Source: Adineta ricciae (taxonomy: Eukaryota > Rotifera > Eurotatoria > Adinetida > Adinetidae). Taken from it: 64,000 nt of DNA. A model generated the notes under the pieces. That model was not told the DNA's origin. It made no database searches and worked only from the letters and a program-made list of their open reading frames with translations. Position numbers and translations under genes: made by a program. Shown one piece after another: positions 3,190-38,574 of this stretch; position 1 is the first letter of the stretch, and each line of letters opens with the position of its first letter. Where the stretch lies: positions 124,001-188,000 of the forward strand of contig CAJNOJ010000081.1 in assembly GCA_905250025.1 (NCBI GenBank). Reading direction: 5' to 3'.

Positions 3190-4263
3190 ATGTACACGTT
3201 CTTTAAAGACTACTTGTATCAAATAGCTCGAATACCTGTTCATGAACGATGGCTACTCAATCGACTATTTCGAATCAGGGGAATATTTCATACTTTAAAT
3301 GATCGACGAGGTGGTGGATCGTTTGGCTCTGTTTGGGCAGCGACAAGAGCAGATGGTAATCTATTTTCTTCATTTTTTTTTGTCATGTGTTCTACATTTA
3401 ATCTAAAGGTCGTCGTGTAGCCGTGAAAGTCTTCAATTTGAATCAAACAAGAAATTTGCAAGGCCTGTTAGCATTAGCCAAGTCATTTCAAGACGAAATT
3501 CGAATGTCATATAAGATGCGATTTTCGACCAGTCACGTGGTGACTGTTTACGGGTTTGATTTAGATTTACGAAGGCGAGTCGGTTTGGTATCAATGGAAT
3601 TAGGTGATGACAGTTTAGAAGAACGTGTAAGAACTCTTCATATGATGTATTATTCACCTAATGGAAGAGGAATGATTGACGGTGAATTTATCGCGCCCGT
3701 TGATCGAAAGAATATTTGGTTTCAAATCGTGAATATTGCTTTGGAACTGGTCCGACATAAAGTTGTTCGTATATCTTAACTAAATACGAGAAAAGTGTGC
3801 TAAACCTTAGTTCATATATATTCAGGTTCATCGTGACATCAAACCAGCGAATTTAGTATTTTTTGGTCCGATTTTGAAAATTGTTGATCTAGGCATTGCA
3901 CAAAAAGAATTTGCAGCGTAAGTACTACGAACTAAGGTGGAATTCTCTTCTATTCATATATTCAGATATAATTCACGGCGAGTCGGTGGTACTCCATTCT
4001 ACAGCGGACCTGAATGTATTTTTGGCCAGTTTCCAGTCACACCAAAAGCTGACGTTTGGTCAATTGGTGCTGTACTATACTTTTTAACATATGGTGTTCC
4101 ACCTGCATATTGGAATTCAACACCACCGCCCGGTGTTTCGCTTAGTCGTTCACTGCCTGTTCAGGAAGTACTTTACCACACTCTTCAGCAGAATCCGAAT
4201 GCTCGACCATGGCAATATCAACTCGCTCAACATCCACTAACTGCTAATCCTGAAGTATTCTGA
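3190..4263 (+). CDS. Protein kinase, TTK/MPS1-like
   Basis: Model join(3190..3355,3409..3764,3826..3917,3966..4263), about 303 residues, essentially a bare kinase domain. Seen in order: glycine loop GGGSFGSVWAA, lysine in VAVKVF, catalytic loop HRDIKPAN, metal site DLG instead of DFG, then VGGTPFYSGPE where most kinases have APE, and DVWSIGAVLYFLTYGVPP. The activation and P+1 region and the LYFLTYG segment resemble the spindle-checkpoint kinase TTK/MPS1. The N-terminal TPR region of true TTK is absent, so this could be a truncated paralogue. All frames join in phase. The second intron uses donor GTTCGT at 3765. The start was taken as the first ATG after an in-frame stop; an extra upstream exon cannot be excluded. 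Confidence 0.75.
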
Positions 4264-4575
4264 ATATCTATCGTTTGTATATCATTAAATTCGCACGCAA
4301 AATCGTTCTTCCGATATTTTATTGTAATTATTCATTTCATACTGTTTATTATATGTCTATAATAATAATTATACAAGAATTCTTTGCAAAAGAAGAACGA
4401 CAAAACAAAATATTTCGATTAATCTTTCATTTATTGAGAAAAACTTCGACTAGAGTGCATTCGATGAGAAGAGGTTAAAAAAAAGTGTGAACAACTACGA
4501 ATAAGATAAGAAAGGACAATGATATCAACACGTTGCATTCAGCAAGATCGAAAAGTCTGAACAAGTACGGTTGAT
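4264..4575. other. Convergent 3' region between kinase and myosin
   Basis: Short AT-rich stretch that holds the 3' ends of the two converging genes. No conserved coding signal is visible. Confidence 0.5.
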
Positions 4576-7500
4576 TTAACGTTGACGAACTGAACTAGCG
4601 CGAAGTGTTGATGTTGCTCGAATTGATGTTGATGTTTCTTGAATGTCGTGCTAAAATTAATCGGAGAGATTAGATTTATGTATCTACGGAAAGATTGAAC
4701 TTACACTTGATGCTCGGCCAACGCTGACAGATGATCGATTCTTTGTACGCAATTTTGTAAGTTGACTTTCAGCTAAATCAGCACGTTCAGCTGATTCTTC
4801 TGCAAGAAAGAAAAACAAAAGAAAATTATTGTTTAGCTTCGATAATTATCAACGTACCAAGTTCTTGTTGAACTTTACGAAATTTAGCCAAGTTGAGTGC
4901 AGCAATTTCCTCTAGAAAATCACATAATTCAGAACCATGCTCGTATGAGATCGTTTCTGCGAGTCTTACCGGCTTCTTCGACTTGACGTTTGTAGACTTT
5001 GAGTTTGGCTTGTAATTTTTCTGAGAGATCTTGTAAGCGTTGTTGATTCTTACGATCTTCTTCAGTTTGAAAGGCTAATTCTTTCAAGCGGCGATCATTT
5101 TTACGTAATTCTTTGAGTGTTTCTTGGTGACGATGTTGCTCTAATTCGTTTTCGCTTTCTAATTCATGAATCTAAATAAAATACCATGAAACTTCTGTTT
5201 TTCATCATCATCTATTCTTCTTACGCGTTGTTCAAGTTTAGCAATGACACGTTTGCCACCTTTAAGTGAACTGCCTTCAGCTTCATCCAAACGTGTTTGA
5301 AGATCTTTAACTTGTTGTTCGAGACCTTTACGTAATCGTTCGACTTGTAAAGCATGATCTTGTTCTTGACGTAATTCTTCAACGAGACGTGATGCGTCAG
5401 CAGTGGCTTTCTTGCTGCGTTCTTCACTGTTCTTGAGTTCACTGACAGCTTCATCCAAATCAGCTTGCATAGCTGCAATGGTTGATTCAAGTTGTCGTTT
5501 CTGTGATGATAAGTTAGCGTTTTGAGTGCTAACATCACTGATACGATCAGCTGCATCGTGAAGTTCATTTTCAGCTGCTTTACGAGCACGTTCAGCTTGT
5601 TCCAAAGCTGTACGTAATTCTTCTAATTCGCCGGTGATGACATTGGCACGACGTTCAGCTGCCATGGCAACTTCACGTGCTTCGTCACGTTGTCGTTGTT
5701 CTTCTTCAACTTGAACTTGTAATTCAGTGATGTTTTGTTGAATACGTTTCAATGATTTTTGTAAATCAGCATTGGTACGATTAGCATGGTCGAGTGCAAC
5801 TTCGAGTTCATTGATGTCGGATTCAAGTTTCTTTTTCTAAACAATCCACGGATGAATGAAATCATGAACGAAAGAGAGAACGTACCTGTTTGAGTGTTTC
5901 AGCTTTTGATCGTGCTTCAGCTTCCAAACTGGCTTGCATCGATTCAAGAGCACGTTGGTGATTGCGGCGAGTGTTTTCGAATTCTTCTTCTTTCTCGTGA
6001 ATTCGTCGATCGATTTCTTGACGAACAGTGCTCAATTCCATTTGTGCACGGAGAACTTTCGCTTCTTCTTGTTCAAGTGCAGCTTCGGCATCTTCCAAAG
6101 CAGTTTGTAATTCTTCTTTTTCTAATTCAGCACGTTTGCGAGCCTTTTCTAATTCGTGAACGCTCTTGCCACCTTCGCCTAATTGATCAATAAGATCCTA
6201 GAAACGGAACAGCAATATTTCGTTATGTTTCGAACGAGTTCTTCAATACAGACTTTGATTTCATCGGCTAAGTTCTTGTTTTCCTTGCGGAGAGCATCGA
6301 TTTGTTCGTGTGATTCTTCGTATTGTTGTTTGAGTTTGAACAATTCTGTTGAAAAGTTTCGTGCTTCCTTTTGGGAGGCTTCAAGTTCGACAGTGATGTC
6401 TTCGCATTTTTGACGCCATTCATTGATCAATTTATCAAATTGTTTCTGTTTTTTGTCCATAGCCGAAGCATCTAGCAATACAAAATGTATTCGAAGAGGT
6501 CAAACGACACTACAAATGTACTCACTGGCATTGGCACGTTCGACATCAACCATGAGATCTTCGACTTCGCCTTGTAAACGAGCTTTGACTTTTTCCAAAG
6601 CATTGCATTTGTTCAATGCAGCTTCGACTTGTTCTTCAGCTTCGGTCAATTTAGCAGCTAATTTACGTTTGGCTTCTTCAAGTTCTTCGCCACGAGACAT
6701 ACCTGAAATCAATTGAGGATATTATGTCAGTTTATCTGCGAGAAGAAAAGGTAATAAAAGCAGTACCTTCAGATTCATAACGAGATCGCCATTGTTGGAT
6801 TTCAGCTTGAAGTTTCGAAACTTGTTTTTGAAGTTCACTTCTTGCTTCTTGTTCTTCGTCGAGTTGTTCACGAGCTTGGTCGAGATCAGCTGTCAAGTTA
6901 CGGATTTGTGATGCTAAAAAGCAGACGATGAGAATCGATTAGAGTCAGTTGTGAGATAGACGTTGAAATACTTACTAACTGAACCTTTGCCGCGTAATTC
7001 GTCATCAATGGTTCGTTTAGTTTCATCAAGTTGTTGTTGAAGAGAAGTCTTTTGTTTACTCAATGCAGCAATTTGATGTTCGAAATCTTCGATTTGACGA
7101 GTTAAATCTGAATTTTCACTGGTTAACTTCGTCTTGCTATGAGTTAAATCAGTGACTTGTCGAACTTGTTCTTCAAGTTTGATTTGAAGATCATTCAATT
7201 GTTGTTCGAGTTGTTTGGAAAGTTTTTCAGCAGCTGCTTTGCCTTTTTGAGCATGATCAACTTGTGTGCGTAAGTTGTCTAATTCCGATTTCACACCTTG
7301 CTTGTCTTTTTCGAGTTTGTTCTTCAATTTTTGTAATTGATCAATTTGTTCACCCATTTCTACAGCAAAACAATCACTGTAAAGACAAACATAATCATCG
7401 GATTGACTTACCAGTAACAGCATCTTGGTGTTTCTTACGGAGTTGAGCAGCTGTGGCTTCATGTTGAAGATTAGCTTCTTCCAAATCACGTCGAAGTTTT

Positions 7501-10500
7501 TGTAATTCACCTTCGCGCTTCTTGTTCATTTCAACTTGTGAAGCTGTGGCACCACCAGCATCTTCCAAACGATCACCCATTTCATCAATTTCGCGTGCTA
7601 GATCAGCGCGTTGTTTCTCGACTTTGGTTCGTGATTGTCGTTCGTTTTGAACTTCTTCTTCTAATTCTTCAATACGTGCTTGTAAGTCTTTGATCTTCTT
7701 TCCAAGACTTGTGGCTTGTCCTTGTTCGTCTTCAAGTCGTCCACCCATTTGTTGAATTTCTTGATCTTTGCGTTTAAGATTCTCTTCTAATTCGCGTTTA
7801 ACTCGTTCTAAGTCTTCGAGACTGCTTTGTGCACCCTTCAAGTCTGTTTCTAATTTGCGTTTAGATTTGTCTAAGTCAGCACGAGCTTTCTTTTCACGTT
7901 CTAAACTATCTTCTAATTCATCTAAGGTTTGCTCGAGCTTGGTCTTCAATTTGTTCAAATGATTGACTTTGTCTTCTTCAGCTTGCAATTGTTCAGTTGT
8001 CTTGGAGTTTTGTTCTTCGAGACGTTTTCGTTCACGCGTAGCTTTGGCAATGGTTTCATCTTGGCGAGCAATTTCATCTTGTAAGGTATGAATTTGATTA
8101 TCNACTTACTAACTGAACCTTTGCCGCGTAATTCGTCATCAATGGTTCGTTTAGTTTCATCAAGTTGTTGTTGAAGAGAAGTCTTTTGTTTACTCAATGC
8201 AGCAATTTGATGTTCGAAATCTTCAATTTGACGAGTTAAATCTGAATTTTCACTGGTTAACTTCGTCTTGCTGTGTGTTAAATCAGTGACTTGTCGAACT
8301 TGTTCTTCAAGTTTGATTTGAAGATCGTTCAATTGCTGTTCGAGTTGTTTGGAAAGTTTCTCAGCAGCTGTTTTGCCTTTTTGAGCATGATCAACTTGCG
8401 TGCGTAAATTGTCTAATTCCGATTTCACACCTTGCTTGTCTTTTTCGAGTTTGTTCTTCAATTTTTGTAATTGATCAATTTGTTCACCCATTTCTAAGAA
8501 AAACAGTCACTGTCGAGATGAACACAATCATCGGATTGACTTACCAGTGACAGCATCTTGATGTTTCTTACGGAGTTGAGCAGCTGTGGCTTCGTGTTGA
8601 AGATTAGCTTCTTCCAAATCACGTCGCAGTTTTTGTAATTCACCTTCGCGCTTCTTGTTCATTTCAACTTGTGAAGCTGTAGCACCACCAGCATCTTCTA
8701 ATCGATCACCCATTTCATCGATTTCACGTGCTAGATCAGCGCGTTGTTTCTCGACTTTGGTTCGTGATTGTCGTTCGTTTTGAACTTCTTCTTCTAATTC
8801 TTCAATACGTGCTTGTAAGTCTTTGATCTTCTTTCCGAGACTTGTGGCTTGTCCTTGTTCGTCTTCAAGTCGTCCACCCATTTGTTGAATTTCTTGATCT
8901 TTGCGTTTAAGATTCTCTTCTAATTCGCGTTTAGCTCGTTCTAAGTCTTCGAGACTGCTTTGTGCACCCTTCAAGTCAGTTTCTAATTTGCGTTTAGATT
9001 TGTCTAAGTCAGCGCGAGCTTTCTTTTCACGTTCTAAACTATCTTCTAATTCATCTAAGGTTTGCTCGAGCTTGGTCTTCAATTTGTTCAAATGATTGAC
9101 TTTGTCTTCTTCAGCTTGCAATTGTTCAGTTGTCTTGGAGTTTTGTTCTTCGAGACGTTTTCGTTCACGCGTAGCTTTGGCAATGGTTTCGTCTTGGCGA
9201 GCAATTTCATCTTGTAAGGTATGAATTTGATTATCACGAGTTTTACATTCATTCTCCGACTTTTGTAAGCTTAAACGCATGTCATCGATGTCTTTCTTCA
9301 AACCATCGATGTCGTGTTCAAGCTTCTTCTTTTTGCTGTTTAATTCTTGGGCGGTTTCTTCTTCTTGACTGAAACGATCTTCTAAATCTTTGATTTGTTG
9401 TTCGAGATCAGCTTTTTGTGTCACTATCGAATAGAAAAATGCGAAGAGTTATTCGATGACGAGCGAATGCGCTAGAGAAATCGCTTACCTAAGCGTGTGT
9501 AACGTTCTTGAGCTTCGGATGAGCCAGATCGTTCAGATTCAAGTTGTTGGTAGATATCATTTTTCTCTGAAAAACAGTGTGTGAATCCAGTATGGAAAGT
9601 TTTCTTTGTGCAATACCTTTAACTAATTTCGAGTTGGCATCTTCCATTTCTTTACGTAGTTTTTCTTCCTTTTCAAGAGCTTCTTTCAATGCTTTGAAGT
9701 CTTCTTCAAGTTTCTTCATCTCCTCTTCTTGACGAGCAACCGACAACAATGGTTTAACTTTAGTATAAAGTTTCCACCATGGCCAGTTACGTAACGATAA
9801 GTATTTGCGAAGATTGCGTTGCACGACGGCTAAGGCCAAGCGTTGTTCCAATTTCTTCTTGTATTCTTTCTTCATGATATAACCACGGATTTGACCTTGT
9901 AAAGTGGCAATGATCTTCGATAAAGCTTGATCACGCATATCTTCTAATTGACCCAAAGTACCAGCTTTGAAGAAGACCTTTGTAATACCACATCGGTACA
10001 ATTCTTCGTTCAAAGCAATGTCTTTGAGAATATCCTCGGAAGCTTTCTTGGCATCAACAAAGCCCTTTGGAATAGCATTAGGTGCAAGAATTGAGTAACG
10101 TTGTTTGAATTCTGCATAGATCATACGATTAGGAAAGCCTTTACGACAAATACGAATGCCTTCTAATACACCGTTACATGTCAATTGATGCATAACCAAA
10201 TGAGCATCAAGAATACCACCAGTCTTGATTTCGTTCGGGATGATACAACGAACAAAATGAGGATGTGTTTGTTTCAAAGTGTTCATCAATTTGTTCAATT
10301 GTTCCTTAAAAAGTTTCAGGCAAAATAAATTTGCTTTTCTACTTCAATCAAATGGAAACTCACCCGATGGGTAGCTGAAATGGTTTGCATACTACCACCA
10401 CCTTTCTTTTTGCCACCACCACCTTTACCACCACCTTCTTCTTCAAGAACATCGGCGAAGAGATGACATAACATAACGTTCTTCGATTTAGCGAAGAGTC

Positions 10501-24643: not shown

Positions 24644-27600
24644 ATGGAGTATGATAATCCAAAGAAACACTCTATTATGAAAAATGCTCGCGTACAGACG
24701 AAACAAACAGCTATTCCATTAAATCATGAACTAAGGCGATATGAACGACCACCACCTAGCAGAAATGTTCGTATACAGACTGAATTAACATCGATTGGCA
24801 CCGACGATGAAACGATGCACTATCGTCGAAATCCGAAAAAGATGCCAGTTCAGATCGTCTACGATCCATCGTATGTACCGGGTGTAGCGTATCCAAACTT
24901 CAACGATAAAGACACACTTGTTCAAAACGATGCAAACGATACCACAGGTGATAAGCTCGACAGAGATCTACGATCGGAAAAAGACGATACGACAACACCA
25001 CCAAGTCAAACAGTCGCAGCCGAACCAACCGATCTTCCAACAGAACCCATTCTCGAGTATGCCGACGAACCACTCCTACCACTAGCTGAAGCATGTGCTC
25101 CTCTCGACACCATTCTACACAATCTTTCCTATTACGTCCAGCTAGCTTTGGAAGAAACACCTCAAGAACCGCCCGATCATCTCACCATCGACGAAAGTGC
25201 TGCTATTCGCTTGTACACCATCGAATGGGATCGACCACATCGAAGTCTCTATTCCATGCTCAACTACACTCTCAAAAATGAGAACAGAGAAAAACTCCGA
25301 CCATACTTCAGGTACATGAAACTCTTCATCACCGCTCTTGTCAAACTACCCTGTGTGCCACCACTCACTGTTTGGCGAGGTGTCACAAAAGATTTGAGTC
25401 AAGAGTTTCCACCTGGCACTCCTGTCACCTGGTGGGCCTTCTCATCCTGTACAACCGAACTGACTGTTCTCGAAAATAACATGTATCTCGGCAACAGTGG
25501 AAGTCGAACACTGTTCTCCGTCGAAGTCATCAATGGTCGAACAGTTCGTGCACATTCACATTTCGTCACCGAAGACGAACTTCTTCTTCTACCTGGCACA
25601 CACATGATAGTTCAGTCACTGTTCAGTCCAGCACCTCAACTACACATCATTCACTTGAAACAAGTCATTCCTGACGAACCTCTTCTCAAGCCACCATACG
25701 AAGGTAACTTTTTCTTCTTTTCCTGACTGATCCTTCTTCGTTATCGTTGTTTGTGTATGTCTAGGTGCACTGATATTTCCGAAAGTGAAGTGAGTGGGAC
25801 ATGATGAAAGAGTGAGAGTGTTGATGAATGAGTTGATTTTAGAAAGTCTTGGTACAAACAGAAGCGATTTGTGATTCCAGTATGTTTGCTGTTAGCTTTG
25901 GCTATCACAGGTGCTGTGATTGGTGGTGTTTTAGGAGCCAAAGCTAAACAGGACGCGAATAATAGTGGAGGTAAGGGTATCAATTGTGTACAGATATGAA
26001 TAGGCTAAGTTAGAAGAAATTGGATGATGATAAGCACGCATTTCTCTCTTTTAGTACAACGATGTACGACACCTTATCTTAGCCAAGCTAGCAAATATGC
26101 TACGGGTCGGAATCCGGTGGCGGCAACCTTAGGGGACTTTAATAATGATTCAAATTTAGATATTGCAGTCATCAATCAACAAGATAATGATGTAGTTGTA
26201 TTGTTGGGTGATGGTCAAGGAAACTTTCAATTTCAAGACACAATTTATGCTGGATCTCAACCAAATTACGGGATATTTTACGACTTCAACGACGATCAAA
26301 AGGATGATCTCGTATGGAGTAATCCACAATCAAATACTGTTAGTTTGATGATTAGTAATGGCGATGGAACATTTCAGCAGGCAATAGATTATTCTGTTGG
26401 TGAAGTTCCATCTTTTATTGTAGTGGATGATTTCAACGATGATAACACACCAGATCTAGCTGTGACTAATAAAGGTTCTAACACCGTTAGTGTGCTAATC
26501 GGTTATGGATTTGGAGTGTTTCAGAGTGGAGACGATGTCGACGTTAGCTCAGCACCCAAGGGCATTGCCTCAGGTGATTTCAATAACGACAGTTTTGTAG
26601 ATTTAGTGGTGATTAATTCAGGAAACGGATATGTTAGCGTTCTACTCGGTTTTGGAAATGGATCTTTCAATGACCAGTCGCTACTTCCGCTCTATTTGGG
26701 TATATCGACCGTGGTAGTGGATGATTTTAATAACGATACAAAGCTCGATCTAGCAGTCTTGAATGGTAAGCATATCAAAGAAGAACGAAGGGTGTGTTCA
26801 AAAGACTATTCTATAGAAATTCTCCTAGATCCTCTAAATTTCAGTTCCATTTTCATTTCTGAATATGCTAAACTTGCCACAGAAGTCAAACACAATATTC
26901 ACCCAAATAACTCATAGACCATATCAGTTCTTCGGATGAATTTGTGTAGTATTCTCTTGACCTTCGTTTCTAAGTTGGAGATTTGGAACGAAAATGGTAT
27001 GTTGAAATGTAGCGGTGAAATTGAGGCAACATTGTGAATTATGTGCGGGCTATTTCGGAGTTAAAAGGATTTTTAGTCGAGTTTATGTGAAACTAGAAAA
27101 ATTTCTTTAAGTAAAGTCCCTTGAACACTGTCAGGGAAAAGCGCTCGACTTAAATAATCTGCTGCTTTTTTCCACAGATTTTGGTCTCGTGAGCATTCTA
27201 TTCGGATACGGCAATGCAAACTTTAGCGCACCAACGAATTATTATATCGGCAACGCACCTACTGCAATTATAGATGGCTATTTCAATAATGACAGTTATA
27301 TTGACCTCGCAATGACAAATTCTGGCGATGATACCGTCAGCGTACTGTTGGGTGAAGCTGGCGGCACTTTTCAAACAGCAACAGTGTACAATGTAAGCGG
27401 CAGTCCTTATGCTTTAGTATCCCAGGATTTTAACAGTGATGGATTCTATGATTTGGCTGTTGCCAATTACGGAGATGCTAGCATTAGTATCTTAATGAAC
27501 TCTCAAAATGGAACTTTCCAGACACAGGTTATTTATAGCGTCGGCGCGCTTCCAATTAGTATTGACGCAGGTCTATGCAATCGGGATAACTACATTGATA

Positions 27601-29579
27601 TAATTATTTTCAACTACGGTGATAGTACTATCAGTCTGATTTTTGGCACCGGCAATGGAACATTTCCTTCATATCCAAAATATCCAGTTGGATCCCGTCC
27701 CAGCTACATCATATCTGCTGATTTCAACAACGATACCATATTAGATATGGCTGTCACAAATCAAGGCAGTCAGCAAGTGGGTATTTTAATGGGTCTTGGC
27801 AACGGGATATTTCCCGGATTTTCCACTTATCCAACAGATAATTCTCCTAGAGCTATTCTCTCAGGTCACTTCAACAATGACACACGTTTAGATGTAGCTG
27901 TGATTACTTCGGACAATCTCGATATATTCATAGGAACAAAAAATGGTGCGTTGGGGCAGAGAACATCCTATCCACTTCCTACAAAACCTATTGCCATGGT
28001 ATCTGGTGACTTCACTGGTGATAATCTTACAGATATAGCAACAGTATCTCGTACAGATAGCTCCATTACCATAGTTCTTCATACTGCCACCAGTTCATTC
28101 AACGAGACTATACCTGTTAGTATTCCTAGTCCCGCTTGTGGCATCACCACAAACTATTTCAACAGCGACAATCTACTAGATCTCGCAGTCACCAGCTGCG
28201 ACAACAGTACTATATACGTTCTTCTTGCCAGTGCACTTGGCACATTTTCATCGCCGATTTCATATTCTGTTAGTAGTAGGCCGACCTCGATTATATCTAC
28301 TTATATTGACAATGACAAAGTCTTTGACTTAGTTGTTGCCAACAGTGCCAACAATACCGTTAGTCTACTCCTCGGAAATTCTGACGGAACTTTTCAAGAT
28401 CAGAAAACTTATGCAGTTGGGACGACGCCAAACTTCATTGCATCGAACGATTTCAATAACGACAGTTTTCAAGATATAGTCGTTGTCAACACGGGAAGCA
28501 ATTCTGTTAGCGTCTTGTTGAATGATAAAAGTGGATCGTTCAAAACTCAAACAAAATATTCAGTTGGCGCTTTTCCATCATGTGTGACGACTGGTGACTT
28601 CAACTTTGATAAAATAGTCGATTTAATTGTAACAAACTCTGGAGACAATTCATTCGCACTTTTAATTGGTTCCGGAGATGGAACTTTTGCGATACATTCA
28701 GAATATGGTACTGGTAATATACCTGTATTTGTTATAACCAATGATTTTAACAACGATTCACTGTCTGACCTAGCAGTTATTGCTAGTAAAAGTAATACTT
28801 TTAACTTATTTACTGGAGACAAAAAGATTATCTTTCAAGCACAGCGTGTGTACCCAACTGGCAGTCAACCGGCTTTTGTTCTAGCAAACGATTTCAATAA
28901 TGATAAGATCCTCGATCTTGCTGTAGCTAACTCAGCTAGTGTCACTGTAACTATCTTACTGGGCAAAGGAAACGGTTACTTTACTTACGGACAAGATTTA
29001 AAAACTGGAACCTCGACAAGTTGTTTAGCAGCAAATGACTTTAATCAGGATAAAAAAGTAGATCTTGTTGTGATTAATTATAGCGCAAATAGTATTGGAG
29101 TGTGGTTAGGGTCAGGCAATGGGACATTTACATTGAAACAAACCTACAAAGTTGGTTCATATCCCGTATTTATTACAACGAATGATTTCAACCGTGACAA
29201 CTTCGTTGATCTAGCTGTAACCAATAAGAATCAAGATAATTTCTATGTCTTTTTTGGAAAGGGTGATGGGACTTTCCGTTTATCTACTACAAATTTCACA
29301 GTTGGCACCAGTCCATTGTCGATCATATCGTATGATTTTAATAATGATACGTATGCCGATTTAGCAGTAACCAACTTTGTTAGCAATGATATAAACATCT
29401 TTCTTGGTAATGGCGATGAAACATTTGAAGGTATCTCAGAAATTTCAACTGGCAACGATCCTACTTCAGTCGTAGCTGGTGATCTCAATCATGATACCAG
29501 ACTGGATTTAGTTTCGTTGAACACACTTGACGGAGCACTATCTATTTTTATCAATTCGTGTAAAAAAGTAAACAAATAG
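24644..29579 (+). CDS. ADP-ribosyltransferase - membrane helix - FG-GAP/VCBS repeat protein, copy A
   Basis: Model join(24644..25703,25765..25789,25843..25970,26055..26765,27178..29579), 4326 nt, 1441 residues. Residues 1-115 are polar; an arginine-type mono-ADP-ribosyltransferase domain follows with R245 in VWRGV, SS at 267-268 (FSSCT) and E310-D311-E312 in FVTEDELLLLPGT, the R-S-ExE signature of NAD-arginine transferases. A basic stretch (SWYKQKR) precedes one membrane helix at about 370-393 (IPVCLLLALAITGAVIGGVL). The remaining ~1040 residues are FG-GAP/VCBS repeats with calcium-loop motifs such as DFNNDSNLD and VLLGxGxGTF. There is no signal peptide; the basic side predicts the ART end inside and the repeats outside. 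A 25-nt exon is required to keep frame. The fourth intron, 412 bp, has no counterpart in copy B. Confidence 0.88.
25009..25960 (+). repeat. Inverted repeat arm 1 (ART/membrane-helix tract)
   Basis: About 950 bp, spanning exon and intron sequence of gene A, that matches the complement of 37310..38258 nearly base for base. The near identity in introns marks recent sequence exchange, not selection on protein. Confidence 0.85.
26766..27177 (+). other. Copy-specific 412-bp intron in gene A
   Basis: GTAAGC..CACAG intron inserted within the FG-GAP array between LAVLN and DFGLVSILFG. At the matching place copy B reads through without interruption. It is much longer than the other introns of the gene (53-84 bp). 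Confidence 0.75.
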
Positions 29580-29924
29580 GCATCTTTCTGACTATATCAG
29601 ACTATTGTTGCCATATTGCATGGCAGTCAAACAATGTAGATATTTTCGGATTCTGCTTGTTTTATTCAGTCTTTTTTTCTTGTGTTGATAAAGTCTGTAC
29701 AACAAATATTTTCTATTCCATGACACATAGACAAATGTACTCGAACAATTTTCATATTCTGCAAGATCATTTTTCAAAGATAACAGCGTGTTTACTCTCT
29801 AAAGTGCGATGTATTTATTCAACTATAAGATTCATTGACATAATCGACGGTTGACGATATCATTCCGACGAACAGGATGATCGTGATGAGCAATTTCGTA
29901 TTCAATAACAAGTTATTCAACTAA
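29580..29924. other. Convergent spacer, gene A / TIR gene
   Basis: 3' regions of two converging genes. No conserved coding is visible. Confidence 0.5.
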
Positions 29925-32460
29925 TTACAAAATATTACATAATGTAATCGAAAGAAAAGTAGATGGGGTAGGTTTAACCAGTTTAGAAATGAAAGGAACA
30001 TAAAATTTGATTTCATCAAGGAAAGATATGTAATCAGTAACAGATAGAAATATGCGATATCTTTCATTTAATTCAAATTTCAACGATTGATACATGGATT
30101 CTCGATTCAGAAGGCACATTTCGTACAAATGTAAAAGACGATGACCGTCCATATATGTACATAAATGAAGGATACTATGTTCGAGTTTGATCTGTTGAAA
30201 AAATGATTTGACATGTTCATGAGTCCATTGAGTAATACAAGTTGGTAGATCACTAGGAAAACAAAAACATGAAACACACGAAATCTCAATTTCGAGAAAC
30301 TTACATGATCGAATGAGTAACACTATGCGAGGATTCGGAGAATTGATTGGATATTTCCAACTGCTGACGATGCGATTGTTCATTGATTTCGCTTTTCAAT
30401 CTGCCATATGCTGATTGAAACGGCGTGCGAACAAAATCCACGTATATCTTACCACTGACGATAATACCCAGCCACCCATCAGGTTTATAATTCGATTCGA
30501 CGAGAATTGGAATCAGCTGACATCCTCGTTCGAACGCATAATGAGCTTCCGATTGACAGTAGACACTTTGTTTATAAGAATTTGACATACAAATCAAAAC
30601 ACATTCCGAATTTTCGATAGCATCCGCCATGCCCATCATGGTCGATCCTCGCAGACAATCTCGATCGAACCAAACACGAAAGCCATCTAGTGTTAGTTGC
30701 TCATGAATTCGATGGCATATATGTTGATCTCTATGAGAATAACTGATCATAATGTCATACTTATATGAATTGAATTTGTTTGTATTCGTAAATGCTTCTT
30801 CTTCTTTTTCCAATTTCCAAAGAAGTCCTTCAGCCGCTCGTTGTAAACTCGATTGGTTATTGTTAGCGAGCGAACGAATCTGATCGATGAACTGATCATT
30901 ATATTTCAGCACTAGACACGCGTTGTTATCGAACGAAAGTGCAACAAGAATTTCTAAAGCAATCTGTCGCACTTTGATCGGATCGAATCGATCATCTCGA
31001 ACGCATTGAATTAATAATGATAAAGCATTCTGTTTGATAAATTCGATTTTCACTTGATCGTGCTGAACAAAATCTGAACTAACATCGAGATATTCTCGCT
31101 GAATAGTAACTAAATCAGACTTACTTTTCAAGCTTTCCAATAAACTAGAAAAACGTTCGGTTTTGTGCGGATCATCGATTGATTTGACTAAAAACTCCAC
31201 GTGGACATGTACGAGTTGTTCTGGATTGGTCATTGTTTTAATGTCGGTCTCATCCATGAGCTTTCCTAGACAACGATAAGCATTCAACTGGATCTCGTCG
31301 TTATTCACATCGGTGAGTTTCAAGAGCATGGCGATTAAATTCGGAATTGTTTTCATGAAGTTCAAAACATTTCGATGTAAACTCAAATTGTAGATGTTTT
31401 GAATGATAATCGAAGCGCTGAATTTCGTATTTAATTCATCCGACGAATAGGCTAATGTCGATGCTAGAACCGTTGACCAATAGGAGACAAGTTGACTGTA
31501 TTGATGGAAAAATTCATTACTGAACAGATTGATATGATCTGATTCAATCGGACGGACGAGAAAATAGCTGATATGACGAAGCACAGTTGCGAATTTTGAA
31601 GAACAATGCCGATAAGAATCCGGATGGCAGTTGATCAGCCATTGAGTGAATTCAGTCAATAAAGTTCGATGAACTTTAAGAAGATGCTTCGTTTCCCGAT
31701 AGCCAGAGTACCATTGTAAATACCATGGCATTGTGCTCAAAAGTAAGGCTTGTTCATCGTCAAGTTTCTGAACGAAATTCGATTCTAAACTTCGAATCGT
31801 TTGAACAGCACGTGACGAGCATAAACATTGACCAACCGAAAAGAATATTGGAAGAATTAAAGCATATTCTTTCTTATTCAATGGATTATCGTGAAAATGT
31901 TTGAAAATCACCAAAAGAAAACCAACCGAACGGAGTAGTGAGGAGTTTGTGGTTAAATAATGGCTATGCATAGCGACGTCTTTCAGACAATGTGTAAGTT
32001 CATCGATTAAGACTTTTTGTAGGAAGAGATGTTTGAAGGCAGCGATGTTCGTATCGTCAATATGCGAAGATAAATGTACAAATAGCGTTGATGTGTCCAG
32101 TAATAGATTTTCTGTTTGAGAATCAGAAGTTTCTCTCCGATGTAAAGGATCAATGATTCCATTGTTACGTATTAAGATAAGTAATTCATGTTGAATCAGT
32201 TCATGATCAGCTAATTTCTTATTTCGATAAGGTACACTTGCTAATGAACGAATAATTCGGTCGATAAACATATTTTTCATGTTGACATTGTTGATTTGCT
32301 CTAATACCGAATGACATACGGTAAAAGACATTTTCAATTGTTCGATACTTATGTTCGAGCCATAGTCTTTGATTAATGTACATTGCTCATCGATTTTAAA
32401 ATTCGACATGGTTCGGCGAATGAATCTGAAATAAACATCAGTCATATTCTTTCCGTTCAT
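29925..32460 (-). CDS. Armadillo-like - TIR - SAM protein
   Basis: Model complement(join(29925..30252,30305..32460)), 2484 nt, 827 residues. About 550 N-terminal residues form leucine-rich alpha-helical repeats of armadillo/HEAT type. A TIR domain follows at about 565-700: YDIMISYSHRDQHICHRIHE, FRVWFDRDCLRG, SECVLICMSNSYKQSVYCQSE and LIPILVES. Glu near position 638, in YCxxE, matches the WCxxE catalytic glutamate of SARM1-type NADases. After a 52-bp intron comes a SAM-like domain (WTHEHVKSFFQQIKLEHSI ... YMDGHRLLHLYEM). SARM1 is ARM-SAM-SAM-TIR; here the order is ARM-TIR-SAM with one SAM. A role in NAD cleavage or in signalling scaffolds is inferred. The gene sits between the two inverted ART genes and is divergent from the EEP gene. 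Confidence 0.85.
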
Positions 32461-32919
32461 AATTTCATTTGTCTTTGCTCAACAAAAATGGTTGAAATGA
32501 ATGTGACTTCTATGAATCATTTATTTATTTATCTCAGTCAGAAATGATTCTCTAACAATGGACAATGATCGAGCTTCGTACAGAGATGCTGTTCTCTTAT
32601 GCAGTTACGTCATCAAGGCGATTTCTCACTGGATAATTCTATTGTCTGTGTAGGAGTATAGATACAAATATATCTTTATCGTTGTCTTTATCAATGCTTA
32701 TGACACATCAGATATTTCGATATCTTAAAGTAAATCTTTGACGTCGTTTATTATCATTTTTAATTTTTCCGATGAAAGCAAAAATATGACTCATATGGTT
32801 TCACAGTGATGATGAAACAACGCTTATACAGGGAATACAAGTCGTTTTCGCTTATGATTATATTCGTATCTACAACAAGGAGTTTCATTAAATTGTGTCT
32901 CAAATAGTCTACTGTATTT
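32461..32919. other. Shared 459-bp divergent promoter region
   Basis: Lies between the start codons of the TIR gene and the EEP gene, so both promoters must be within it or close by. AT-rich; no clear motif. Confidence 0.5.
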
Positions 32920-33870
32920 ATGGCAGCTTCTTCGAGTTCTAACGTTAACAATGAAGAAAACATATTTCAACAACAAGGTTTTGTCGTAGTTAGCTGGAAT
33001 GTCTTGCATTTGATTCATGAAATCAATCACACATATGACTTAAGTCCGGTAATCAATCGATATTCCATCAAAGAAAATTGGTCGAATGAACAGCAACGAC
33101 TGAATGATATTATCAAAACGTTGAGCGATATATTGGTCAAGTATTCATCGATAGAATGTTTTATTTGTTTACAAGAAGTACCTGGTGATTTATTACCGAT
33201 GTTAGATACAATGATTCATGCACATGTCGGCTCTGTTTTAATTAATAAGCCAATGATTCATGTGCGTAGTTATCCTCGGGTACCAGCGACGAGACAAAGA
33301 CCTAGACAACCATTGTATACTAACCCAAATGAAAATCTCGTCACAATTCATTATAATCCTTATGTGGCTGATGCGAATATAGCAGTAGATAACAGAATGG
33401 GCGCGACATCTACTCTGCTGAATGACCGAGCTGATTGGACACAATGTCCCTGTGATCCCGGCAAAGGAGCACTTACGATAGTAACCTCGTCAGGCCTAAC
33501 TGTCGTCAATATACATGTTCCATTCAAGGAACAGCACGCTATTTCACTGCTGAATAGTCTGCATTGGCCTCGTCAAGATACTCCTTTCGTACTTGTGGGT
33601 GATATCAATCGCCAAGCGCCTGCATTCATGCGTCTGATTCAAACAGCTACTAATGGAAAGCCATCTGCTGGTCTTCTGTGTTCCATAGCACCTGACAAAC
33701 CTACGAGAGTAGGTTTAGAACAAGATGGCACACTTAAGAAGTACTGCATCGATCATTATCTCGTCTCTGCGTCATTAAGAAACTCAACTACGGCGCCCGC
33801 ACTTGTTTACGACAATATTGGTGATATTTCCGATCATTTTCCAATCATACTTCAATTCAACAGCATGTGA
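32920..33870 (+). CDS. Endonuclease/exonuclease/phosphatase (EEP) family protein
   Basis: 316 residues, one exon. Seen: VVVSWNVLHL at the N-terminus (Asn of the first motif), FICLQEVPGDLLPML with the metal-binding Glu, a central beta sandwich, LTVVNIHVPFKEQHA (catalytic His region), FVLVGDINRQ (GDxN), IDHYLVSA and ISDHFPIIL (terminal Asp-His pair). All catalytic positions of the DNase I-like fold are in place. Members cleave DNA, RNA, phosphoinositides or nucleotides; the substrate cannot be told from sequence. There is no signal peptide or membrane segment, so it is probably cytosolic or nuclear. The start used is the ATG right after the divergent promoter region. Confidence 0.85.
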   Translation: MAASSSSNVNNEENIFQQQGFVVVSWNVLHLIHEINHTYDLSPVINRYSIKENWSNEQQRLNDIIKTLSDILVKYSSIECFICLQEVPGDLLPMLDTMIHAHVGSVLINKPMIHVRSYPRVPATRQRPRQPLYTNPNENLVTIHYNPYVADANIAVDNRMGATSTLLNDRADWTQCPCDPGKGALTIVTSSGLTVVNIHVPFKEQHAISLLNSLHWPRQDTPFVLVGDINRQAPAFMRLIQTATNGKPSAGLLCSIAPDKPTRVGLEQDGTLKKYCIDHYLVSASLRNSTTAPALVYDNIGDISDHFPIILQFNSM

Positions 33871-34059
33871 TCTTGCTGAAATAACATTTCATGACACAAT
33901 AGTTCACATACGAAACATATGAGAAAAGTCTGTTTTTATTCATATAACAACTTTGACGCGTTTTCGCGTCAGAGAAGAAAAAGAACAAGAATAAATACAA
34001 AAAAGTATATTGATACAAACTGTGTACAGATCTCGTGTTTGATGTAGTCAGATTTTTAT

Positions 34060-37000
34060 CTATCCTGTCGGACCAATCGCCATTGAACTTGCAGCTTGAC
34101 ATGTATTCGGGAATACAGACACTGTCGAATCAAGTGTGTTAACTGCAACTAGATCTAACAGCTTATCACTATTCAAATCATTTGCTAGGACTAGGCTAGG
34201 ATCACTGCCAGTTGTAAGACTCATACCGTTCTCGAAACTTCCACTACCATTGCCCAGAAAGACGTTAATATTGTTATCAACGTAATTCGTTACCGCTAAA
34301 TCAATATATGTGTCGTTATTCAAGTCATACGATATGATCGATGTCGGACTACTACCAACCGTGTAATTAGTAGAAGACAAACGGAATGTTCCATTACCAT
34401 ATCCAAGCAGAATGTTGAAATTACTTTGATTCTGATTGATCACAGCCAAATCAAAGAAAGTATCGCTGTTGAAATCATTCGTTGTAACAAATACGGGATA
34501 TGAACCAACTTTGTAGGTTTGGCTCAACGTAAACGTTCCATTTCCGGATCCTAACCACACGCTGACGCTATTGCCGTTTCGATTCACAACAGCGAGATCT
34601 ACATATGTGTCCCGGTTGAAGTCGTTCGCTGCTAACGCAATCGGCTGATTTCCCAATATTGAGGTTATCGACGAAGCAAAATAACCATCTCCTTTGCCCA
34701 GTAAGATAGTAACAGTAACACCAGCTGAGTTAGCTACAGCAAGATCGAGGATCTTATCATTATTGAAATCGTTTGCTAGAACAAAAGCCGGCTGACTGCC
34801 AGTTGAGTACAGACGTTGTGCTTGAAAGATGAATTTGGCATCTCCAGCAAATATAACAAGAGCACTGCTAGATTGAGCCACAATTGCTAAATCAAGTAAT
34901 GAATCGTTGTTAAAATCATTCGATATGACAGAAGTAGGCTGATAGCCGGCAAGGTACTTTGAATGTACCACAAAAGTTCCATCTCCGGAACCAATTAAAA
35001 GTGCGAATGAATTGTCTCCAGAGTTTGTTACAATTAAATCGACTATTTTATCAAAGTTGAAGTCACCAGTCGTCACACATGATGGAGAAGTGCCAACTGA
35101 ATATTTTGTTTGAGTTTTGAACGATCCACTTTTATCATTCAACAAGACGCTAACAGAATTGCTTCCCGTGTTGACAACGACTATATCTTGAAAACTGTCG
35201 TTATTGAAATCGTTCGATGCAATGAAGTTTGGCGTCGTCCCAACTGCATACGTTTTCTGATCTTGAAAAGTTCCGTCAGAATTTCCGAGGAGTAGACTAA
35301 CGGTATTGTTGGCACTGTTGGCAACAACTAAGTCAAAGACTTTGTCATTGTCAATATAAGTAGATATAATCGAGGTCGACCTACTACTAACAGAATATGA
35401 AATCGGCGATGAAAATGTGCCAAGTGCACTGGCAAGAAGAACGTATATAGTACTGTTGTCGCAGCTGGTGACTGCGAGATCTAGTAGATTGTCGCTGTTG
35501 AAATAGTTTGTGGTGATGGCACATGCGGCAGTTGGAATGCTATATGAGACCAAAGCGTTGAATGGATTATTATCACTACTGACAGCGATGGTGATGAAAC
35601 TTTTAGTGGACGACACTGTTGCTATATCTGTAAGATTATCACCAGTGAAGTCACCAGATACCATGGCGTCAGGAGTTGTAGCGAACGTATAGGATCCTCT
35701 TTGTCCAAACACAGCGTTCCCGTTTCCTTGAAACATGACAACAGTTCCGGCTGAAGTAAGTACAACTAGATCTAAAAATGGATCTCTGCCGAAATAACCT
35801 GATATAACTGATATAGGAGGGCTGTCTGTTGGATAGCCGACGAATTTAGGAAACATTCCAGAGCCAAGACCAAGTAAAATGCTCATACTATCGGCGCCAA
35901 AGTTTGCCACCGCCATATCTAATATAGAATCATTGTTGAAGTCATTCGATATGATGTAACTAGGTTGTAATCCGACTGGATATTTTGGATATGAAGGAAA
36001 TGTTCCATTAACACTGCCAACAAGAAGACTAAGGCTGTCATCGCCGTAGTTGAGAACAACAATATCAATGTAACTGTCGCTATCGCACATACCTGCGACA
36101 ACGCTAACTGGGAGTGTGCCAACATTATAAGTAATTTGCGGTTGAAATGTTCCATTTCGATAATTTATCAAGATGCTAATACTGTTCTCTCTGTAGTTAG
36201 TAACAACTATGTCTGGATATTTATCATTGTTAAAATCAGCAGATGCCAGGGCGCTTGGACTAGTACCGACACGATACGTTGCTTGACTTTTGAATGTTCC
36301 ATTAGCACTGCCAAGAAGCACAGTGATAGTGTTGTCAAAGAAGTTAGTCACTGCAATATCCATACAACTATCGTCATCAAAATCTTCATATATCATCGAA
36401 TAGGGCGTATTAGAGACAGCATAACTGTTTGCTATGACAAAAGATCCATTTCCATAGCCATATAGTATACGAATACTTTTATTGTCACTATCGGTCACAA
36501 CTAAATCCAGATTTGTATCATTGTTAACACTATAGGCCACCAGATTTCTTAGACCACTAGTGATCTGAACTTGCAGTTGTGAATTGAATGTTCCGTTCCC
36601 TAGGCTAATGAAAATACTGACGAAAGAATCAGCGGTATTCGCCACTGCTATATCCACCATACCATCATTGTTAAAATCGCCCGTGGCGATGGCACTGGGT
36701 AGGGTTCCACAAGTGTATTTCACCTGGGTACGAAAAACACCATATCCAGACCCCAGTAGCACGCTGATCGATTGCTCTCCTTGATTTGCCACTACCAAAT
36801 CTGGTATATTATCGAAATTGAAATCAGCTATCTCGATGAAAACTGGAGTTTGACCAACCGAATAAGATTTCTCGGATTGAAAGGTTCCATCGCCTTTGCT
36901 AAGTTGAACATTGACAGTATTATCTGCTTGGCTAGTCATTATTAGATCGTTCTTTTTATCCTTATTCAAGTCATACATAACCACATAAGTCGGATCGCTG

Positions 37001-38574
37001 CTTGTAAAGATAGTGGACTGAGCTTGAAAACTTCCCGATCTACTGCCGAACAGTATAACTACATTATCATCTTGTTGGTTCACAATTGCAATATCCAAAT
37101 TTGTATCATTATCGAAGTCACCTGTTGCGGCAGCGACTGGATTACGGCCGGTGGCATATAAGCTGGCACCTTGTGCATAAACTAGTTTACATGATTGAAC
37201 TAAAATAAAAAGCGATATTTAACCAAATCGCATACTGATGGACTTCTCTCTAACTCAACTTGTTTATGTCTTTTTACATTACAAATACATACACATAGGA
37301 CCTATTATCGTTGAAGCTGCTGTTGATCGCGTTCCTAAAACACCACCAATCACAGCACCTGTGATAGCCAAAGTCAACAGCAAACATACTGGAATCACAA
37401 ATCGCTTCTGTTTGTACCAAGACTTTCTAAAATCAACTCATTCATCAACACTCTCACTCTTTCATCATGTCCCACTCACTTCACTTTCGGAAATATCAGT
37501 GCACCTAGACATACACAAACAACGATAACGAAGAAGGATCAGTCAGGAAAAGAAGAAAAAGTTACCTTCGTATGGTGGCTTGAGAAGAGGTTCGTCAGGA
37601 ATGACTTGTTTCAAGTGAATGATGTGTAGTTGAGGTGCTGGACTGAACAGTGACTGAACTATCATGTGTGTGCCAGGTAGAAGAAGAAGTTCGTCTTCGG
37701 TGACGAAATGTGAATGTGCACGAACTGTTCGACCATTGATGACTTCGACGGAGAACAGTGTTCGACTTCCACTGTTGCCGAGATACATGTTATTTTCGAG
37801 AACAGTCAGTTCGGTTGTACAGGATGAGAAGGCCCACCAGGTGACAGGAGTGCCAGGTGGAAACTCTTGACTCAAATCTTTTGTGACACCTCGCCAAACA
37901 GTGAGTGGTGGCACACAGGGTAGTTTGACAAGAGCGGTGATGAAGAGTTTCATGTACCTGAAGTATGGTCGGAGTTTTTCTCTGTTCTCATTTTTGAGAG
38001 TGTAGTTGAGCATGGAATAGAGACTTCGATGTGGTCGATCCCATTCGATAGTGTACAAGCGAATAGCAGCACTTTCGTCGATGGTGAGATGATCGGGCGG
38101 TTCTTGAGGTGTTTCTTCCAAAGCTAGCTGAACGTAATAGGAAAGATTGTGTAGTATGGTGTCGAGAGGAGCACATGCTTCAGCTAGTGGTAGGAGTGGT
38201 TCGTCGGCATACTCGAGAATGGGTTCTGTTGGAAGATCGGTTGGTTCGGCTGCGACTGTATGATTTAGTTGTGTTACTGGGGTAGTTTCTACCATGCGCT
38301 GATTGCCACGTGCTGATTCGATACCAGTATTATATGCGTCGTGCAATAATTCCATTGCTATAATTTCTTCATTTTGAATAAGAGTTTCTCTTTCGTGTGT
38401 GTTCTTATGTACTACGTTTGTGTTGTACGATAGATCAGTCAAGATCTGAACAGGTGTCCTGTCAGGATTTCGACGATAATGCATAGCTTCATCATTGTGT
38501 CCGATTGATGTTAACTCGGTTTGTATACGAGCATTTCTCATTTTAGTTTTTTTATGTCGTGGCCTAGAATCCAT
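34060..38574 (-). CDS. ADP-ribosyltransferase - membrane helix - FG-GAP/VCBS repeat protein, copy B
   Basis: Inverted paralogue of gene A. Model complement(join(34060..37199,37293..37426,37480..37504,37566..38574)), 4308 nt, 1435 residues. The R-S-ExE transferase domain is the same as in copy A: about 235 residues from TVAAEPTDLPTEP to the end of the first exon are identical, with only a few silent changes. The 25-nt exon and its two introns are also nearly unchanged. The N-terminal ~110 residues, the segment after the membrane helix and most FG-GAP repeats have diverged; one repeat block (about 34974-35513) is again almost identical. The donor at the end of the membrane exon is ambiguous (GTCCTA or GTATGT, both in phase). 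It converges with the EEP gene 190 bp away. Confidence 0.88.
37310..38258 (-). repeat. Inverted repeat arm 2 (ART/membrane-helix tract)
   Basis: Complementary partner of 25009..25960 in gene B. The match ends sharply: upstream codons differ, and after GGVLG the coding sequence switches from AKAKQ in A to TRSTA in B. Confidence 0.85.

Follow-up and report, generated by a model that had tools for sequence, protein, structure and literature searches.

Two inverted genes that enclose a TIR gene in the rotifer Adineta ricciae raise the question of whether the pair encodes receptors with an ADP-ribosyltransferase (ART) in the cytosol and whether the enclosed genes belong to the same system. We analyzed the window, the whole stretch of 64,000 nucleotides on contig CAJNOJ010000081.1, together with related loci elsewhere in the genome. 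The preliminary description had proposed that two genes in opposite orientation each combine an R-S-ExE ART, one membrane helix and about twenty FG-GAP repeats, and this was borne out by the spliced frames, the Pfam matches and a blade profile that counted 21 repeats in each gene.

Architecture of the proposed receptor pair

The models of the two genes comprise the following features:

24644..29579, + strand: gene 1, ART–transmembrane–FG-GAP receptor of 1441 aa; spliced open frame of five exons with GT-AG introns
24644-25703, 25765-25789, 25843-25970, 26055-26765 and 27178-29579, + strand: exons of gene 1, all joined at GT-AG
24644..25006, + strand: N-terminal tail of gene 1, predicted to be cytosolic; contains two KNxRxQT-like motifs
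25007..25703, + strand: ART domain of gene 1; R245, S268, E310 and E312 correspond to the R-S-ExE residues
25843..25970, + strand: transmembrane exon of gene 1; helix at about residues 371-389, preceded by the basic flank KVKKSWYKQKR
26055..29579, + strand: FG-GAP ectodomain of gene 1, with 21 blades that are each about 49 aa long; broken by the intron 26766-27177
34060..38574, - strand: gene 2, ART–transmembrane–FG-GAP receptor of 1435 aa; spliced open frame of four exons, with Pfam matches
38574-37566, 37504-37480, 37426-37293 and 37199-34060, - strand: exons of gene 2
37293..37426, - strand: transmembrane exon of gene 2; helix at about residues 354-372
34060..37199, - strand: ectodomain of gene 2; 21 FG-GAP blades

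As modeled from the genomic sequence, both genes begin with a tail, which is followed by an R-S-ExE ART, a single transmembrane helix and then the 21 FG-GAP blades. Neither spliced frame contains internal stops, and the GT-AG joins lead to a single frame in each gene; position 37302 offers a second in-frame donor for the third exon of gene 2.

The curated cut-off of the Pfam family PF01129 is 22.3 bits. The full gene 1 protein falls below it with 20.0 bits, while exon 1 of gene 2 alone exceeds it with 25.7 bits, placing the domain in the family; the two ART domains are identical (dN 0). Two related ARTs elsewhere in the genome pass the cut-off with 42.5 and 41.8 bits. A profile of nine ARTs from the family had rat ART2.2 as its best match in the Protein Data Bank (PDB; E 0.0093), with the WRG, FSS and E-D/E-E motifs aligning with the ART2.2 residues. 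In the alignment of these nine sequences (A1), the arginine, the serine and both glutamates are invariant in all nine, as are two cysteines. The agreement supports the proposed R-S-ExE enzyme in both genes, and the domain is predicted to have arginine-type ADP-ribosyltransferase activity. A recent bacterial origin of the ART was not supported: a search of prokaryote genomes with A1 produced 58 pattern matches and 0 confirmed relatives, such pattern searches missing distant relatives. In the tails, [TVI]QT motifs occur 24 times among 26 sequences compared with 2.6 in shuffles, and the KNxRxQT motif may be LC8-like.

The FG-GAP part was recognized with high significance, FG-GAP_3 matching 17 stretches in gene 1 (E 1.8e-95) and 18 in gene 2 (E 5.9e-96). 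FG-GAP_3 and FG-GAP scored above the Pfam cut-offs, with 314 and 141.5 bits in gene 1 and 315.5 and 114 bits in gene 2. We counted blades with a purpose-built profile and found 14, 21 or 28 of them in each of the seven ectodomain frames that are complete and end regularly, the numbers that two to four seven-bladed propellers would give; C675 is a misfit whose frame ends at 27 blades, and the frame of C488 ends at 32 with a stop. The 21-blade ectodomain of the window genes is probably three seven-bladed propellers. No match at E 0.001 emerged when a 14-blade ectodomain was compared with PDB sequences. Structure predictions were of low confidence for both the ART alone (AlphaFold, pLDDT 35.0) and the ectodomain (two window rows, pLDDT 34.7), so that neither the ART fold nor the propellers have model support. 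The FG-GAP part matches ten bacterial loci at 25–40% identity, which decides neither for vertical nor for horizontal origin.

Predicted membrane topology

Each protein contains a single strong hydrophobic segment, with KD19 values of 2.57 and 2.44 and all other peaks at or below 1.73, and a hydrophobicity scan found no hydrophobic N-terminus in either. A signal peptide or an additional helix that would reverse the topology was thus found in neither. Among the 26 segments with both flanks available, the N-side flank was more basic than the C-side flank in every case, indicating that the N-terminus is inside. The domain order, the lack of a hydrophobic N-terminus and the positive-inside signal together place the ART inside and the repeats outside, and the topology proposed earlier stands as a prediction: a type II single-pass protein, well supported by these features. 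N-glycosylation sequons were not enriched in the ectodomains over shuffled sequence (22 versus 18.7 and 20 versus 19.3).

A family sharing the ART–transmembrane unit

A genome-wide search with the transmembrane exon gave 37 matches, 33 of which have an ART exon within 700 bp upstream on the same strand. The ART exon and the transmembrane exon are, by this search, a recurring unit at 33 loci, defining a family of about 33 genes. We fetched 30 ART loci and read their translations by eye: FG-GAP repeats come next in 25 of them, cysteine-rich repeats in one (L013) and laminin G in one (L037), the last identified by Pfam. As these different modules follow the same ART–transmembrane unit, the outer part is exchangeable; the ART of L013 is nested (98/95) in a clade of 26 ART rows in which the other ectodomains seen are FG-GAP. 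Among the four transmembrane exons with no ART match, we found no alternative inner effector: L063 and L064 lie in broken frames, L065 is preceded by the end of an ART exon running into an assembly gap, and the 1.8 kb fetched upstream of L062 contains no ART exon. The same genome also encodes FG-GAP proteins that lack an ART and have a short tail and one hydrophobic segment (C70/L042 and C488/L058).

Two related single genes, with checked splices, join ART and TIR, one in each order (TIR-ART and ART-TIR), and by eye their N-termini contain no hydrophobic stretch. These fusions place a related ART in the cytosol, beside a signaling domain. The cysteine-rich and laminin-G modules in the equivalent outer position and the relatives joining TIR and ART are in agreement with an ART on the inside.

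Unequal evolution of the two halves

The mean identity was 72% for the ART and 39% for the ectodomain, and the ART was the more similar half in 252 of 253 pairs. Across 17 chosen pairs, dN/dS ranged from 0.05 to 0.25 in the ART, mostly around 0.1, and from 0.10 to 0.58 in the ectodomain, mostly 0.2–0.6; by these ratios, the ART is under strong purifying selection. The ectodomain ratio never exceeded one and positive selection is therefore unsupported. The contrast is not universal: in three of the 17 pairs (L018/L019, L022/L023 and L027/L028) dS was higher in the ART, which is thus not always the more uniform half, and for L018/L022 the two ratios were alike (0.23 and 0.25).

For the pair in the window, dS was 0.018 in the ART and 1.9 in the ectodomain, and two tracts of high similarity were located:

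24994..25936, + strand: homogenized tract, arm 1; 9 mismatches in 943 nt, 0 in 114 nt of intron
37333..38275, - strand: homogenized tract, arm 2, counterpart of 24994..25936
28118..28986, + strand: second homogenized tract, arm 1, located in the FG-GAP part; 92% overall, with no more than 2 mismatches per 100 nt in 28218-28617
34674..35542, - strand: second homogenized tract, arm 2, counterpart of 28118..28986

The block from the ART to the helix, introns included, has been homogenized, and gene conversion is the simplest explanation.

The genes enclosed by the pair

Two genes lie between the receptors:

29925..32460, - strand: TIR gene; two exons, 32460-30305 and 30252-29925, with the splice assigned by eye; the TIR domain is at about residues 570-687
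32920..33870, + strand: EEP-like (nuclease-like) gene, single exon, single copy; Exo_endo_phos_2 E 0.011, below cut-off

The former had been described as an ARM-TIR-SAM protein with its catalytic glutamate retained. The TIR assignment holds (TIR_2, 83.4 bits), while SAM is weak (SAM_PNT E 0.089, below the Pfam cut-off) and Pfam gave no match for ARM. The glutamate does align with those of TLR15 and the CRISPR-associated TIR Cat1; its presence in TLR15, a signaling TIR, means that it does not demonstrate NADase activity. The gene resembles SARM1-like ARM/SAM/TIR NADases in its TIR domain and conserved glutamate position, and it differs from them in that only TIR passes the Pfam cut-off. The domain order of SARM1 is also different. 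The label of EEP nuclease/phosphatase was not sustained, the match being below the cut-off.

We likewise found little reason to retain the proposed three-gene NAD signaling or defense cluster. Among the 33 ART–transmembrane genes, only the two in the window have a TIR match within 50 kb on the contig, some contigs being shorter than that, and a comparison by eye found no contig shared between the TIR gene's paralogues and the other ART–transmembrane genes. The nuclease-like gene has no second match in the genome. The TIR gene appears to be a chance neighbor of the receptors and is probably not part of a system with them.

Discussion

We consider it somewhat probable that the window genes belong to an expanded family of type II single-pass receptor ADP-ribosyltransferases, with FG-GAP repeats outside and an R-S-ExE ART in the cytosol. 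For the activity, ligand, gating and role of these receptors, we infer the following. A large 21-blade ectodomain, probably of three seven-bladed propellers, would be exposed outside, one helix would span the membrane, and an arginine-type ART would sit in the cytosol behind a flexible tail. Ligand binding or clustering outside could gather or expose the ART domains, which would then mono-ADP-ribosylate cytosolic proteins. The role may be one of recognition, for example in defense, self/non-self discrimination or environmental sensing. Purifying selection, joined in some copies by gene conversion, would maintain the ART–transmembrane half, and the outer half would diversify or be replaced.

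The strongest competitor, with a minor yet appreciable chance, has the proteins as membrane-anchored adhesion or matrix proteins at the surface or on internal membranes, the ART being a constitutive enzyme or scaffold with no ligand gating. The FG-GAP proteins that lack an ART suggest that the ectodomain can function without the enzyme, and the receptor ligand is only postulated, but the strong purifying selection on the ART and its retained signature residues argue for an active enzyme tied to the ectodomain. An ART facing outside or the ER lumen like the vertebrate ecto-ARTs, with the FG-GAP part cytosolic, is unlikely. Its closest solved relative is indeed an ecto-enzyme, two cysteines are invariant and the sequon counts fail to mark the FG-GAP side; the uniformly basic N-side flanks, the missing hydrophobic N-terminus, the C-terminal position of cysteine-rich and laminin-G modules in sister genes and the TIR fusions all speak against it. 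Quite unlikely is a single functional locus in which the TIR protein and the two receptors act together: ART-TIR fusions in both orders indicate that the domains can cooperate and the TIR glutamate is kept, but that residue is shared with TLR15, 31 of the 33 ART–transmembrane genes have no TIR match nearby (contig ends limiting some), the nuclease-like gene is alone of its kind and the frames outside the pair resemble, by eye, unrelated genes. Finally, each copy could be an ART gene and a separate FG-GAP gene wrongly joined, the models being predictions from the genomic sequence and the microexon between the ART and transmembrane exons having only 25 nt; with one frame resulting from the joins in both copies and the ART–transmembrane order recurring at 33 places, this is very improbable.

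Read as cytosolic-ART receptors, the proteins share parts with several known systems. Vertebrate ARTC ecto-ADP-ribosyltransferases (rat ART2.2, PDB 1gxy; PF01129) have the same R-S-ExE domain but are GPI-anchored or secreted with the enzyme outside, whereas the rotifer enzyme is predicted inside, tethered to an ectodomain; the ARTC arrangement of signal peptide and extracellular ART was not found, the N-terminus lacking a hydrophobic stretch and the positive-inside rule placing the ART inside. FG-GAP repeats are shared with integrin alpha chains and bacterial FG-GAP/VCBS proteins (PF13517, PF01839). An integrin alpha chain carries a single seven-bladed propeller and lacks an enzyme, whereas the rotifer proteins have 14–28 blades mounted on a type II anchor and the ART across the helix. 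Toll-like receptors and receptor kinases, also expanded families, similarly combine an outer recognition part, one helix and an inner signaling part; the analogy is one of working principle only, as the membrane orientation is reversed here and an NAD-using transferase takes the inner position. We know of no described receptor with an ADP-ribosyltransferase as its inner part, and the titles and opening lines of abstracts in the literature searched mention none. The ART–transmembrane–FG-GAP genes look like an undescribed kind of cell-surface receptor.

More tentatively, receptor ADP-ribosyltransferases might form a distinct class of animal cell-surface receptors. The roughly 33 genes would make up a modular family, in part gene-converted, whose interchangeable ectodomains, be they propellers in seven-blade sets, cysteine-rich repeats or laminin-G, would drive an arginine-ADP-ribosyltransferase in the cytosol; TIR-ART fusions would connect it to an NAD-based recognition system. 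The family makes the cytosolic targets of ADP-ribosylation upon stimulation and the ligands of the propellers testable. If the topology and activity hold, the receptors would give animal cells a new route from binding outside to protein modification and would be a candidate recognition system for a lineage with poorly known immune receptors.

Two oppositely oriented ART-TM-FG-GAP genes

The genome searched comprised 130.46 Mb in 1033 contigs, with the window lying at 124001-188000 on contig C81. Two genes of opposite orientation there enclose a TIR gene and an EEP-like gene:

24644-29579, + strand: gene 1, ART-TM-FG-GAP, five exons, 1441 aa
38574-34060, - strand: gene 2, ART-TM-FG-GAP, four exons, 1435 aa

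Every intron in the pair reads as GT-AG and both frames are stop-free. The two share one order: an N-terminal tail of 105-121 aa, then an ADP-ribosyltransferase (ART) domain of ~230 aa, followed by a microexon of 25 nt, the transmembrane (TM) exon and finally an FG-GAP ectodomain of ~1040 aa. Pfam recognized FG-GAP_3 in gene 1 (E 1.8e-95) and gene 2 (E 5.9e-96), while PF01129 ART scored 25.7 bits in gene 2 exon 1 and 20.0 bits in the full-length gene 1 protein, the latter below the cut-off of 22.3. Searched against the PDB, a nine-sequence ART profile had rat ART2.2 as its top match (E 0.0093) and Vis as its second (E 0.089); the remaining three matches up to E 1 resemble chance. By alignment and profile, Arg245, Ser268, Glu310 and Glu312 of gene 1 align with the R-S-ExE signature, ExE being a mark of arginine specificity. 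The preliminary description had proposed a receptor pair with internal ART and external repeats, and on the receptors it was right, with the topology a predicted one; ART, one helix and FG-GAP lie in spliced, stop-free frames, and the ART-TM order recurs genome-wide. A 412-nt intron in the gene 1 ectodomain (26766-27177), missing from gene 2 and the paralogue on C415, is likely an intron gain.

A genome-wide family with exchangeable outer modules

With the ART domain as query, 153 matches passed E 1e-5; the analysis used the 150 that were listed. A composed TM query found 37 places, 33 of them with a same-strand ART exon within 700 bp upstream; all 33 fall among the 38 best ART matches, and family counts are lower bounds (at least 33). 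Of 30 ART loci whose translations were inspected by eye, 25 continue into FG-GAP repeats and one (L013, on C142) into cysteine-rich repeats with no Pfam match, and laminin-G domains follow in another (L037, on C211; 65.5 bits for Laminin_G_3); in L029, L032 and L038 the ectodomain was not visible within the stretch examined. The L013 ART is nested in a clade of 26 ART rows (support 98/95) whose other members bear FG-GAP repeats, except L029 (ectodomain not seen); by this nesting, an outer module was exchanged. FG-GAP proteins lacking ART are also present; their tail is short and they carry one hydrophobic segment:

G000:C70:270800-275400: L042, 28 blades (FG-GAP repeats)
G000:C488:15300-20600: L058, frame hits stop at blade 32

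Adjoining the L037 gene, a second ART start is followed by an undetermined base and laminin-G sequence (L041, G000:C211:31000-35200), perhaps a second ART-laminin-G gene. Downstream of the cysteine-rich receptor gene, a long Kelch-like repeat frame was seen by eye (L040, G000:C142:90900-97000, at 3828-6101). Two loci (L063, G000:C332:91500-94300, adjoined by a TPR-like repeat frame; L064, G000:C278:10300-13000) are broken remnants that retain TM and FG-GAP stretches and suggest turnover of the family.

Topology

Each protein of the window pair has a single strong hydrophobic segment, and a hydropathy scan found no hydrophobic N-terminus in either. The 30 loci provided 27 typed TM segments, and in all 26 having both flanks the one on the N side was the more basic (L029 lacks the C-side one). 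The cysteine-rich and laminin-G modules of L013 and L037 sit C-terminal of the helix, and ART is fused to TIR in two genes with verified splices, whose products are possible candidates for NAD-based signalling proteins:

G000:C251:94900-97700: L043, TIR + ART, 447 aa; TIR_2 76.9 bits, ART 42.5 bits
G000:C38:14500-17700: L044, TIR + ART, 487 aa; TIR_2 57.7 bits, ART 41.8 bits

The domain order is reversed between the two, and both domains exceed the Pfam cut-offs. The C-terminal modules and the fusions are consistent with a cytosolic ART; sequon counts in genes 1 and 2 were uninformative on the side of the ectodomain.

Contrasting evolution of the inner and outer halves

Across 253 pairs from 23 FG-GAP-bearing loci (L020 and L025 left out by the filter), mean identity was 72% in the ART versus 39% in the first part of the ectodomain, the ART being the more similar in 252. 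For 17 chosen pairs, dN/dS was 0.05-0.25 in the ART, with no replacement change in the window pair, and 0.10-0.58 in the ectodomain, where one dS was saturated; it never exceeded 1 in either part, and ART dS was above ectodomain dS in three pairs. Ectodomain evolution is thus relaxed or diversifying under constraint, positive selection not being proven.

In the window pair, ART dS was 0.018 versus 1.9 in the ectodomain; two further pairs, on C482 and C448, show the same contrast, with 0.06 and 1.08 (L018/L022) and 0.11 and 1.01 (L019/L023). Of the 943 sites in the window block 24994-25936, 9 are mismatched, none of them among the 114 intron sites; the 100-nt flanks of the block have 64 and 60 mismatches in an ungapped comparison. 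The simplest reading of these patterns is homogenization of the inner half by gene conversion. The copies on C482 and on C448, which carries three ART-TM genes, thus repeat the window's pattern of near-identical ARTs with strongly diverged ectodomains.

Ectodomain repeats and tail motif

Blades were counted in 11 FG-GAP genes at permissive thresholds, using a profile made from a single paralogue (C157). The seven complete frames contain 21 (genes 1 and 2, C415, C904), 14 (C157, C206) or 28 blades (C70), the multiples of seven that tandem seven-bladed propellers predict, although these counts are not independent because the genes are related. C189 (34) and C223 (27) are cut off by the end of the stretch examined; in C488, repeats continue in the same frame beyond the stop after blade 32; and C675, ending at 27 with an unrecognized tail, does not fit. 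Structure prediction for the ectodomain gave no usable model (pLDDT of 34.7), so the seven-bladed propeller fold is one that we infer.

A KNxRxQT motif is repeated in the gene 1 tail (window 24644-25006) and in paralogue tails. Its [TVI]QT form occurs 24 times, spread over 16 of the 26 tails, whereas shuffling predicts 2.6; as the tails are related, the excess points to conservation rather than independent gain. The motif resembles the LC8 hub motif, and putative LC8 binding would dimerize the tails.

Genomic neighbourhood

The TIR gene of the window is sound (83.4 bits, Pfam). Its diverged paralogues, compared by eye, never share a contig with another ART-TM gene. Measured against 140 TIR matches, with several contigs shorter than the full 50 kb, only the window's two among the 33 ART-TM genes have a TIR match within 50 kb. 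Among the 117 other ART matches, five lie at most 10 kb from a TIR match, and the fusion genes L043 and L044 account for two of the five. The EEP-like gene gives no second match in the genome at E 1e-5. The proposal that the neighbours form a three-gene NAD cluster is on these grounds probably wrong; the physical grouping is best read as chance, though ART and TIR combine elsewhere in the genome. At 5159-10343 (-), in an apparent myosin heavy chain gene, repeated stretches (6914-8105 versus 7955-9448) adjoin undetermined bases and look like duplicated exons or an assembly artefact.

Relation to earlier work

Within the open-access bdelloid, rotifer and Adineta literature on ADP-ribosyltransferase or FG-GAP, as far as it was accessible, we found no description of the ART-TM-FG-GAP architecture, and an earlier one is possible. 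A term search of the main texts of PMC11258130 and PMC5916493 found none of ADP-ribos, FG-GAP and TIR. In the parts available, PMC10809525 reports ADP-ribosylation as enriched in genes over-expressed on desiccation and PMC12220480 in genes under-expressed in flight, neither part naming the family, and PMC3846280 lists FG-GAP among expanded A. vaga families, suggesting defence or extracellular signalling. The ART-TM receptor genes are real, recurrent and under selection, and their function is one that we infer.
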